From an uncultured Spartobacteria bacterium (GTDB taxonomy: Bacteria; Verrucomicrobiota; Verrucomicrobiia; Chthoniobacterales; UBA6821), in contig CAIJRY010000068.1 of assembly GCA_903823215.1 (NCBI GenBank), forward strand, positions 1 to 37,513: DNA of 37,513 nucleotides, given 5' to 3'. Shown piece after piece: positions 2,004 to 28,942 of this stretch. The position numbers and the translations under genes are program-made. How positions within the stretch are numbered: the first letter of the stretch is position 1; each line of letters opens with the position of its first letter. The notes under the pieces are model-generated. The model ran no database searches. It was not told the origin of the DNA and was given only the letters and a program-made list of their open reading frames with translations.

Positions 2004-2049
2004 CAGAGGGACTCCTGAATCCTCGTCATCCCTCTACCCCTTGCTTCCC

Positions 2050-2646
2050 ATGTCTCGTCTGCTCGCCACCATCTCCGATCAGGAAATCATCCAACACGAC
2101 AACGGAGCTTTTGGATTTCTTGCAGGACTTACCATTGACGGTGATGGTTCACCCAGGTGCTACGGCCCTGACAATAGCGGACTTGATCATACCGCCAATG
2201 CTGGAAGCATTGGTGACTGGTATGGCATCGTAACCGATGCAGAAGGCGAACCCATTGTTCAGGGAACCACCGATCCGTGCCCCGGAATGTATATCTCCAC
2301 CACCAGCCTTGAGCACCGCCAATATGCGAGCACCGATCCACGCCGCTACATTGATAGCGAGACGGTGGCCTATGTCGTCTGTCCCGGCTCACTTGCCCGC
2401 AAGGCAGCAGGGGCAGTTCTTGGATGTAAGGTTGTTGTTACCAATACGCGCACTGAAAAATCAATCCACGCCGTCTGCGCGGACATCGGCCCCGCGACCC
2501 ATCTTGGAGAGGCCTCCATCCGCACCGCAGAATTACTCGGCATCCCCAGTTCTCCCCGACATGGAGGTACTGAGGATCACATCATCCGATACACCTTCCA
2601 CGCAGGCGAAGCCGCCGAGGGCTATAAACTTCAGCCTCTGGGATAA
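2050..2646 (+). CDS. Glycoside hydrolase family 75 (chitosanase-like) protein
   Basis: The 198-residue product resembles GH75, a family best known from fungal endo-chitosanases that cleave beta-1,4-linked glucosamine polymers. Family-like segments are GLTIDGDGSPRCYGP (residues 26-40), GLDHTANAG (44-52), CPGMYISTTSL (77-87) and CADIGPATHLGEASI (143-157). The last carries D145 and E154, nine residues apart, the spacing of the catalytic Asp/Glu pair described for the fungal enzymes. The chosen start is the ATG at 2050; a TTG nine bases upstream is possible. No signal peptide is visible, which is odd for a polysaccharide hydrolase. It may act inside the cell, or the true start or export route may be missed. 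It converges with the PEP-CTERM gene, leaving 23 bp between stops. Confidence 0.75.
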   Translation: MSRLLATISDQEIIQHDNGAFGFLAGLTIDGDGSPRCYGPDNSGLDHTANAGSIGDWYGIVTDAEGEPIVQGTTDPCPGMYISTTSLEHRQYASTDPRRYIDSETVAYVVCPGSLARKAAGAVLGCKVVVTNTRTEKSIHAVCADIGPATHLGEASIRTAELLGIPSSPRHGGTEDHIIRYTFHAGEAAEGYKLQPLG

Positions 2647-2669: not shown

Positions 2670-4046
2670 TTACACTTGTTTCCGGCGACAGACTGCAAGC
2701 AGCACCAACCCACCGAGTCCGAAGAGCGCGATGGCCGAAGGTTCCGGAACCGGATTTGGAAATCCACCTGCCTGGGCTGAGAAGAAGACAGTACCATTGC
2801 CAACCAGAGAGGAACCATAATCATTAGTCAGGAGTCCCATGTAGCCGTTCTGCGCATCGTAGAGCATGTTGAAAGCATCAAAGACATTCCTCCCCGTGTT
2901 GAAGTAGGAATACCCGTAGGGAGAGGCATTCTGGGAAAAGATTCCGTTCGTTCCTGAATTGGAGAGGTCGATGGCCGATGGGTTGAGAGCGCTGTTGCTG
3001 CCCATATTAATATTATAGCCTACTCCCCCATTCGTTGCCCCGCCTGAGTTCATGAGCTGGACGGTGAAATTTGTCGGAGCGGTCACCAGGTTACTGGCGC
3101 TAATGTATGCATTACTGATCCCGGAATCCATCACGATGCTTCCCGGGGTATTGGTCACCCCGTTGATGACGGTGGTTCCCATCGGTGTCTGCCAGTCAGG
3201 CACGGAGTTGGAGGAGGTAAGGCCGGTAGAATTGAGTTTCGTGTAGGCATACCCAGAAACATTGGTCGCCAGACCAAGTTGGATGCCGTTGGTCTTGACG
3301 ATATAACCCGCAACAAGGTTGCTGCTGGTAAGGTTGATGAGGGGATTGTAAGTTTGGTTTTTATTATTAGCGATCGGACCTGTTGTGGTCGAGTTAGTAG
3401 CTTCTCCAAGATAAAATCCAACTCCGAAGTTCTCTTCATTGGCAAGGTTAGTATTCAAGGCGTAGGAGACGGAGAGCCCCTGATTCACGGTGACACTACC
3501 ACCGGTAAACAAAAGCGTTGTGGTATTGGTAGTGCCAATGATATTGGCGATGACCGTCCCTGAATCCGTAGTGGTCGTGAAGGTGGCGCTGGCATGGTTG
3601 GAATCACAAGTCAAACTCTGGACATCAAGCACCGTGACCGAGGATGTAACCATATCAGCTAGACCGGTCGCCAGGTTCGTCACATTAAAAGTCATGATGG
3701 TAGGGGTCCAATATCCCTGAAAGACACGACCGGAGCTGCTTAGTCCGATTTGACCGGCATAGGAATCAGCATTGGTGAAAGCCGCTCCCAACGCCGTGGA
3801 GGAAGAATAGAACCCTCGCGAACCTGTATCAACTTGCACATTGAAGTTGGTTTTTGTTCCTGTACTCTCCGGCAGGGAGAAGCTGACAAATACATCACCG
3901 CCGTTATTCGGAGTGAATGATCCACTGGAATAGGGAAGGAAATACGAGCTGGTGTTGGTGTATCCCGCATAGGGATCAGCTTGGGCAAAGAGAGCAGAGC
4001 AACCCAGAGTGGCTTGCAGAAGTATGAGGAAAGGGAGTTTTTTCAT
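2670..4046 (-). CDS. PEP-CTERM protein with aspartic-peptidase-like motifs
   Basis: This 458-residue exported protein has a Sec signal peptide (MKKLPFLILLQATLG, likely cut after ALFAQA near residue 23). It ends in a PEP-CTERM sorting signal: PVPEPSAIALFGLGGL, a hydrophobic helix, then CRRKQ. Such tails are processed by an exosortase and are linked to envelope or extracellular polysaccharide. The body is rich in Ser, Thr, Asn and Gly. Two segments resemble the active-site loops of bilobed pepsin-like enzymes: VQVDTGSRGFYSSS (D73) and IVMDSGISNAYIS (D307). GYIVKTNGIQLGLA lies between them. A peptidase role is inference; many PEP-CTERM proteins have no known activity. The gene has its own upstream spacer with a possible promoter. 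Confidence 0.85.
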   Translation of the reverse strand: MKKLPFLILLQATLGCSALFAQADPYAGYTNTSSYFLPYSSGSFTPNNGGDVFVSFSLPESTGTKTNFNVQVDTGSRGFYSSSTALGAAFTNADSYAGQIGLSSSGRVFQGYWTPTIMTFNVTNLATGLADMVTSSVTVLDVQSLTCDSNHASATFTTTTDSGTVIANIIGTTNTTTLLFTGGSVTVNQGLSVSYALNTNLANEENFGVGFYLGEATNSTTTGPIANNKNQTYNPLINLTSSNLVAGYIVKTNGIQLGLATNVSGYAYTKLNSTGLTSSNSVPDWQTPMGTTVINGVTNTPGSIVMDSGISNAYISASNLVTAPTNFTVQLMNSGGATNGGVGYNINMGSNSALNPSAIDLSNSGTNGIFSQNASPYGYSYFNTGRNVFDAFNMLYDAQNGYMGLLTNDYGSSLVGNGTVFFSAQAGGFPNPVPEPSAIALFGLGGLVLLAVCRRKQV

Positions 4047-4124: not shown

Positions 4125-4553
4125 TTAAACTGGCGTGACTCCTTTCTTGATCAGAAGATTGCCGTATTTTCGCATCTCACCCGTCATCACCACGGCATAG
4201 GCCCCACGCGCCCGCTCGTAGAAGGCAAAGCGGTCGATCCGTTCAGGAGATTTGGCCGAGGGAGCGTGGCGATGCACGACCTTCATGTATTGCTCTCCGA
4301 CAGCGGGATCAAGCTGATCGCCCTCCACAGCGGCCATCATCACGAGCGGCGTGGAGTAGCTGTCGAGTTCAAAGAGCGGCAGAATTCCATCCAGCAGGGT
4401 CGTAACATCAAGCCCATCGGCTCTCACGACCCTCTCGTTGAAGGTATGTCCAGGAAAGTGAGCATCGGCGAGGATGATCTCGTCCCCATGACCCATTTCG
4501 GCAAGGATGAGCAGAAGTTCGGGACTGATGCAGGGATGGATTCCTTTGAGCAT
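4125..4553 (-). CDS. fucU: RbsD/FucU family sugar mutarotase
   Basis: The product has 142 residues, the usual length of L-fucose mutarotase FucU. These enzymes interconvert the anomers of fucose or ribose and form cytosolic decamers. Typical segments are [14 protein letters not shown], the [19 protein letters not shown] block with its conserved histidines and aspartates, and the C-terminal [20 protein letters not shown], where Tyr and Asn close the sugar site. The start is the ATG at 4551-4553, preceded by a good ribosome site (TAGGAG, 7 bases upstream). A longer reading from 4589 would bury that site. It lies 61 bp after the U32 gene on the same strand. FucU fits better than RbsD because of the TGEMRKYGN ending, but the substrate is not proven. 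Confidence 0.85.
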
Positions 4554-4614
4554 GATCACTCTCCTAGCCCCTATGCCCCACCTTGACAAGTCAGCACAAA
4601 AGTTGGGTCGGTCT

Positions 4615-26913: not shown

Positions 26914-27330
26914 ATGCTTATGAAGCCATTACAAATTGCGAAAGTCATAACCATAATAATTGGATGGTTATGGTTATTGATTTTTTTGATTAATCTATTT
27001 TTTTATAAGGGGGGGTGGGACATTGCTAAAATGACGGAATATGCCAAGGGGGTTCTTTCATATCCGACACTTGGACTAACATTATTATTTATGTCACAGG
27101 TCAGAATGAAGCGCTTGTTGTGGGATATAACATTTTCCATATATGTGCTCGCATGTTTGTATCTGCTGCCGTTTCTTTTATTAACGATAAAATATATACC
27201 TGAATTAAAATTGATACCATGGTTTGCAATAATAATTATGTTGATCCCTTTCGGATGGATAATTCCGATAAGAATTGCAGAAGCAAATCCTAACCAAACG
27301 ATGCAGCGAACGCCCTTCGGTCGTCACTGA
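26914..27330 (+). CDS. Cassette 3: membrane protein with attC-encoded tail
   Basis: The 138-residue product has about four membrane helices: VITIIIGWLWLLIFLINLFF (about 11-30), VLSYPTLGLTLLFMSQV, ISIY-like ITFSIYVLACLYLLPFLLLT, and LIPWFAIIIMLIPFGWIIPI. The last residues, NQTMQRTPFGRH, are read from the attC3 sequence itself because the frame stays open into the site. This tail is therefore a by-product of the recombination site, not part of the functional fold. A second ATG two codons in (26920) is possible. No family is recognised. Confidence 0.7.
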   Translation: MLMKPLQIAKVITIIIGWLWLLIFLINLFFYKGGWDIAKMTEYAKGVLSYPTLGLTLLFMSQVRMKRLLWDITFSIYVLACLYLLPFLLLTIKYIPELKLIPWFAIIIMLIPFGWIIPIRIAEANPNQTMQRTPFGRH

Positions 27331-27345
27331 TCTTGTACGTTCGGC
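27289..27345 (+). repeat. attC site 3
   Basis: R'' is CCTAACC and R' is GTTCGGC, which comes from cassette 4. The 57-bp site shares the inner sequence CGATGCAGCGAACGCCC with sites 5 and, with two changes, 6. The two outer boxes do not match each other, as expected where two different cassettes are joined. Confidence 0.75.
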
Positions 27346-27355
27346 AGAGAAATAA

Positions 27356-28571: not shown

Positions 28572-28629
28572 GCCGAACCAAGCGATGCAGCGAACGCCCT
28601 ACGGTCGTCGCTGATCTTATACGTTAGGC
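28572..28629 (+). repeat. attC site 5
   Basis: R'' is GCCGAAC, complementary to the TTCGGC that starts cassette 5; R' is GTTAGGC, from cassette 6. CAGCGAACG (28588-28596) pairs with CGTCGCTG (28606-28613) leaving one extra A on the left arm. It is 58 bp long and close in sequence to sites 3 and 6. Confidence 0.8.
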
Positions 28630-28638
28630 AAAATACAT

Positions 28639-28884: not shown

Positions 28885-28942
28885 GCCTAACCAAGCGATG
28901 CTGCGAACACCCTCCGGTCGTCGCTGATCTTATACGTTAAGC
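28885..28942 (+). repeat. attC site 6, right end of the array
   Basis: R'' is GCCTAAC, the complement of the TTAGGC that starts cassette 6; R' is GTTAAGC. It is 58 bp, a sequence relative of sites 3 and 5. No further R'' box is seen before the aldo/keto reductase gene, so this is the last recognisable site. Confidence 0.75.

Follow-up and report, generated by a model that had tools for sequence, protein, structure and literature searches.

A predicted extracytoplasmic pepsin-fold protein with a PEP-CTERM tail in Verrucomicrobiota, and its relatives

The window analyzed here, a stretch of 37,513 nucleotides from an uncultured Spartobacteria bacterium, encodes on its minus strand (2670–4046) a protein, P0001, that is probably an extracytoplasmic homologue of the pepsin-fold aspartic peptidases and, most likely, an active endopeptidase. 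This assignment is based on a predicted structure, on two invariant aspartates and on profile matches to known aspartic peptidases. P0001 and its relatives are referred to below as family A.

Gene, product and sequence motifs

The reading frame is open and gives 458 residues from an ATG; the coordinates of all its parts refer to the minus strand. The N-terminus (residues 1–23; 3978–4046) resembles a signal peptide, with KK, a hydrophobic stretch and AQA before D24. The signal is likely cleaved between AQA and D24; the next residue, P25, is invariant in all 20 rows of the family alignment described below. The C-terminus (residues 432–455; 2682–2753) is a PEP-CTERM sorting tail that matches PF07589 (26.1 bits, cut-off 20.7) and TIGR02595 (23.8 bits, cut-off 16). 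Two further PEP-CTERM families match below their cut-offs, and the tail is the sole region of the protein recognized above the curated cut-offs of Pfam and NCBIfam; neither collection gave a peptidase family match in P0001. Thr, Ser, Asn and Gly are abundant in the protein.

Two short motifs mark the putative functional site. Asp73 of DTGS (3828–3830) lies within QVDTGSRGFY in the first lobe, and Asp307 of DSG (3126–3128) lies within VMDSGISNAY in the second. The block GYIVKTNGIQLGL (residues 247–259) is located between them. A preliminary description had noted both motifs, the intervening block and the PEP-CTERM tail; all are present in the translated frame, and the tail is recognized by both models named above.

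Predicted structure

A model was obtained with AlphaFold2 from alignment A6, which consists of P0001 and 19 of 20 loci found in public genomes (the partial locus L041 was left out), with a pLDDT of 79.7 and a pTM of 0.81. The model adopts the two-lobed pepsin fold and is neither a beta-sandwich nor a repeat fold, the two outcomes named in advance as speaking against a pepsin-like protein. At E≤0.001, Foldseek matched 540 chains of the PDB. The best 50 of these are BACE, renin or plasmepsin II without exception, and their whole-chain TM-scores reach only 0.35–0.42 of the query, with rmsds of 7–11 Å. VIA-align matched plasmepsin II with a Z-score of 18.8 (267 residues, 3.5 Å) and human pepsin with a Z-score of 18.2 (265 residues, 3.6 Å), and gave Z≥5 for 626 of 997 chains. 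A beta-rich insert in the first lobe (approximately residues 148–205; 3432–3605), whose strands have high pLDDT in the model, is mostly missing from the Proteobacterial rows of A6. A propeptide of the pepsin type does not seem to fit in, since the first strand of the model starts 11 residues after the probable signal cleavage.

A phmmer search of PDB sequences with P0001 gave no match. With the family A profile, 19 sequences matched at E≤10; all but one, a decorin-binding protein (E = 0.93), are aspartic peptidases or PE_PGRS16. The list is headed by 4ehc (E = 5.5e-4), followed by pepsin 1am5 (0.022), by tethered dimers of HIV protease and by renin (0.091). The match to 4ehc spans the first motif only, with its DTG aligned to that of Asp73. 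In 1am5, the two DTG motifs fall on both motifs of family A, the first on Asp73 and the second on Asp307, with weak i-Evalues for the two stretches (89 and 2.1). The sequence link to PE_PGRS16 is modest, because a profile built only from Proteobacterial members matches the PDB more weakly than the mixed profile and drops 4ehc to E = 0.33. Weak sequence matches and predicted fold jointly name one superfamily, and the fold and homology of family A can be considered well supported. The proposal that the motif pair corresponds to that of two-lobed aspartic peptidases is supported by the predicted fold, by the invariance of the aspartates and by the motif alignment with 1am5.

Sequence conservation

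D73, G75, S76, D307 and G309 are invariant in all 20 rows of A6, and T74 is kept in 19. The scan used to find the loci relied on a C-terminal pattern that contains neither motif, so this invariance is not built in. Loss of either aspartate in homologues had been set beforehand as grounds for rejection; neither is lost in any row. Judged by the aligned sequences, the D73/D307 pair is more than a product of chance.

The second motif varies in its middle position. It is DSG in four (including P0001) of the seven Verrucomicrobial rows, DIG in two and DAG in one, and DTG in 12 of the 13 Proteobacterial rows and DSG in the remaining one. In a hand alignment, Leu102 (3741–3743) occupies the position equivalent to the flap residue Tyr75 of pepsin; this column is Leu in 7/7 Verrucomicrobial and Tyr in 13/13 Proteobacterial rows. 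The same hand alignment places Asn-Phe-Gly (residues 206–208; 3423–3431) at the glycine motif of the first psi-loop, as in the Verrucomicrobial rows generally, where the Proteobacterial rows have two hydrophobic residues followed by Gly. Asn-Thr-Gly (residues 383–385; 2892–2900) falls at the glycine motif of the second psi-loop, with N383 present in 20/20 rows and Gly385 in 18/20. Only 4/20 rows match a PEP-CTERM model at E≤0.1, and the 13 Proteobacterial rows end without a tail of this type.

The Verrucomicrobial proteins make up a single clade (100/99) in a 22-row tree, and within it the four DSG proteins form a clade of their own (89/89) that excludes the DIG and DAG rows; the program warned of long branches and uneven composition in this tree, P0001 included.

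Distribution of family A

Within the genus, near full-length copies are present in 3 of 16 genomes (G000, G007 with two copies, and G021), and five others match only as stretches from residue 301 on. At the level of the taxonomic family, 8 of 22 genomes match P0001 at E≤0.01. Nine of the 213 genomes of the order have family A matches at E≤0.001, five of them a near full-length copy (G000, G007, G021, G106 and G114); the remaining matches are a fragment in two pieces in G101 and short C-terminal stretches in three genomes. A sample of the phylum gave matches in 6 of 387 genomes, namely the genome of the window itself, more distant A-like genes in G376 and G388, and short matches in the other three. 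Weak matches of P0001 elsewhere in its own genome all start at residue 371 or later and are most likely matches to the tail.

When genome contigs were scanned with P0001 alone as query, no relative was recovered; the same scan with alignment A3 recovered relatives in public genomes. These comprise 20 loci, seven from Verrucomicrobiota MAGs (L041 being partial) and 13 from Proteobacteria: Atlantibacter (two), Citrobacter freundii M-21, Serratia sp. H1w, Methylobacterium (six), Mesorhizobium, a Beijerinckiaceae MAG and one "Proteobacteria bacterium". The public and genome-derived locus sets are not independent, because several loci are identical sequences (L035=L005, L037=L019, L038=L006, L039=L012 and L040=L018). 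Two more plasmid records, from Xanthomonas and Azospirillum, encode similar proteins annotated as hypothetical, with 25–27% identity to the Citrobacter protein. The Citrobacter gene has no blastn match in E. coli genomes.

Several individual loci show features of their own. In Atlantibacter and Citrobacter (L042, L043 and L044), the A-type gene adjoins carotenoid synthesis genes, as named by eye. A fragmented family A gene, with one frame for the C-terminal part only (L020 1441–1992; L041 175–810), occurs with identical sequence in G101 and in a MAG labelled Chthoniobacter flavus. The protein encoded at L039 1613–3439 (L012 988–2814) is of the DAG type and carries extra C-terminal sequence without a PEP-CTERM match.

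Genomic context

In the window, the family A gene stands alone, without the second gene described below beside it. It lies tail to tail with an RlpA-like gene (2041–2646, plus strand) and adjoins a FucU/RbsD-like gene (4125–4589, minus strand), both named by eye. The stretch that holds these genes, between a phoH-like and a U32-peptidase-like gene, looks variable, because each of the two neighbors is found in only 2 of 16 genomes of the genus, its own included. Exosortase PF09721 matches above cut-off at four places in the genome of the window, one of them partial, so the tail of P0001 has a plausible partner.

Elsewhere in the window, three similar repeats (27289–27347, 28573–28630 and 28886–28942) start with GCC..AAC and end with a sequence similar to GTTAGGC; they resemble attC sites. 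A further copy in L035 (11120–11177) is 95, 89 and 88% identical to the three. Their 24-base core has three matches, and none is expected from shuffled sequences. The repeats look like a chromosomal integron cassette array.

A second pepsin-like family

At four loci, an A or A-like gene has a second gene, which defines family B, ahead of it in the same orientation: G007 (L006/L038), G114 (L018/L040), G388 (L030) and G376 (L031, where the start of the B gene lies outside the locus). All six B proteins in alignment A7 contain two motifs, DTG/DTG in five and DTG/DSG in one. Read by eye, the flap position is Tyr in four of the six and Phe in two, and a PEP-CTERM model matches four of the six at E≤0.1. 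Likeness of A and B through their tails only is rejected: with the tails removed, hhalign gave 97.2% along the domain with both motifs in register, compared to at most 0.6% in eight column-shuffled controls. The B profile matches a Trichoderma aspartic protease in the PDB (E = 0.0056). A structure predicted from three B sequences reached a pLDDT of only 30.8 and was not used, and the assignment of family B is based on its motifs and on the profile comparison with family A.

At E≤1e-6, 11 of the 213 genomes of the order contain B matches; in G103 the match is a short C-terminal stretch only. Three genomes of the order (G107, G108 and G109) have three, three and four matches, respectively, an expansion of the family. 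In the genome of the window, contig C252 carries two divergent B genes. Two further pieces, each at the end of a contig, overlap at their ends and are probably one additional B gene. At a syntenic site beside a GH26-like gene (named by eye), the order is B-B-A in G007 and B-B in G000. The B gene in G000 has the tail end FQRGRPSQKGLATP, and its terminal part matches that of the A gene in G007 (L059 2598–2676 versus L038 6344–6425), as if A had been deleted by exchange within the PEP-CTERM region.

Functional implications

The features above are best explained by the following scheme. P0001 would leave the cytoplasm by its Sec-type signal peptide, its PEP-CTERM tail would hand it to an exosortase, and its final location would be the cell surface or the matrix. 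D73 and D307 would activate a water molecule in the cleft between the two lobes, and the substrates may be surface proteins or protein from the environment.

The sequence evidence on predicted activity points both ways. The aspartates are invariant and DTG and DSG are intact in P0001, which argues for activity; the lack of a flap Tyr, the second psi-loop with Asn-Thr-Gly and the relatives that carry DIG or DAG argue against it. A binding or structural surface protein that keeps the pepsin fold and whose catalysis is lost or fading is therefore a possible reading, one that we favor less. Leu at the flap position throughout the Verrucomicrobial rows, the three rows with DIG or DAG, which fall outside the DSG clade, and the DAG-type relative (L012/L039) with extra C-terminal sequence in place of a recognizable tail are all consistent with such a loss. 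Pregnancy-associated glycoproteins and a xylanase inhibitor are A1 homologues that are not peptidases, and serve as precedents. Both are named among the A1 homologues in PMC2761423. However, a decayed enzyme should drift at precisely the positions (both Asp, G75, S76 and G309) that are invariant here, and P0001 itself retains DTG and DSG. That the motifs are coincidental, in an ordinary repetitive PEP-CTERM surface protein, might be suggested by the composition of P0001 and by the fact that, taken alone, it has family matches in the tail region only. This is highly improbable, being contradicted by the predicted pepsin fold with Z-scores above 18, by the fact that neither Asp varies across two phyla, and by PDB profile matches of which 18/19 are of the aspartic peptidase kind.

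If P0001 is an active endopeptidase, as we favor, a more specific role is conceivable, namely maturation of other exosortase-sorted surface proteins in the manner of PecA, a surface protease described as acting on PE proteins (PMC6819658). P0001 itself carries a sorting tail, and several loci have a gene of a second tailed family, B, in front of A. However, near full-length copies of A are patchy, even within the genus and the order, and the 13 Proteobacterial rows have no PEP-CTERM-type tail, and we consider this role unlikely. Families A and B could also be seen as a branch of the two-lobed aspartic peptidases of bacteria that has so far escaped description and whose members, in exosortase-bearing Verrucomicrobiota, form a surface pair. 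B, with its standard motifs and an aromatic residue in the flap, would cut, A (with its Leu flap and DSG, DIG or DAG) would be turning into a non-catalytic partner or a specialized enzyme, and other PEP-CTERM surface proteins would be substrates of the two together, just as PE proteins are of PecA. We offer this as a speculation of low probability.

In 2009, pepsin homologues were described from seven bacterial species, as proteins without signal peptides and predicted to be intracellular (PMC2761423). An apparently exported pepsin-like family in Verrucomicrobiota, Enterobacteriaceae, Yersiniaceae and Methylobacteriaceae would widen that range. Family A is not detected by the standard pepsin model (PF00026), and it provides new sequences for the origin of the two-lobed enzyme. 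An aspartic peptidase would join the proteins sorted by exosortases, and the DSG, DIG and DAG variants lend themselves naturally to testing the requirements of the second motif.

Comparison with known families

P0001 resembles the pepsins of peptidase family A1 and the shewasins in its predicted fold (Z-scores of 18.2 to human pepsin and 18.8 to plasmepsin II), in having two lobes, and in the presence of Asp-Thr/Ser-Gly twice (D73-T-G and D307-S-G, weakly aligned with 1am5). It differs from A1 at the sequence level. By hand alignment, the flap Tyr75 is replaced by Leu102, and the hydrophobic-hydrophobic-Gly sequence described for both psi-loops of A1 (PMC2761423) is replaced by Asn-Phe-Gly and Asn-Thr-Gly. 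PF00026 (Pfam Asp) has no match in P0001, nor in any of the 20 rows at E≤0.1; a scan of 194 genomes of the phylum was likewise without a match, as were the controls, so absence is not implied. P0001 also starts with a signal-peptide-like sequence, whereas shewasin D is reported as mainly cytoplasmic (PMC4814920).

The single-lobed retropepsin-like bacterial proteases, Rickettsia APRc and Pseudomonas enzymes, share the superfamily fold and the DTG motif with family A. The Pseudomonas enzymes are reportedly single-lobed, and APRc is described as single-lobed in PMC4814920, whereas P0001 has both lobes in one chain. Amuc_1434 of Akkermansia, compared here by its description only, is, like P0001, Verrucomicrobial and DTG-bearing; it is reported to have pepstatin-sensitive activity and DTG and LLG motifs (PMC6982040). 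A search of the open-access literature found no PEP-CTERM pepsin-like protein.

By sequence, the nearest named family is mycobacterial PecA/PE_PGRS16, whose C-terminal domain (PF20729, NF038019, PDB 4EHC) has, like family A, a bacterial aspartic-protease fold with DTG and DSG. The first Asp of PecA (Asp293) is reported to be required (PMC6819658). PF20729 (PE-PGRS_C) matches 12/20 rows at E≤0.1. Of five Proteobacterial members scanned singly, four match, and only the Serratia protein (L054) exceeds the gathering score (34.7 bits versus 33, model positions 17–254 of 265); five Verrucomicrobial relatives scanned singly had no match to PF20729, and P0001 had none to PF20729 or NF038019. PecA has a PE domain and type VII export, whereas P0001 has a Sec-like start and a PEP-CTERM tail, and no PE domain was matched in it by Pfam. 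P0001 may work in a pepsin-like manner, but some of the sequence features typical of A1 are missing from it and it does not qualify as a PecA, and we file family A as an unnamed family of the same superfamily.
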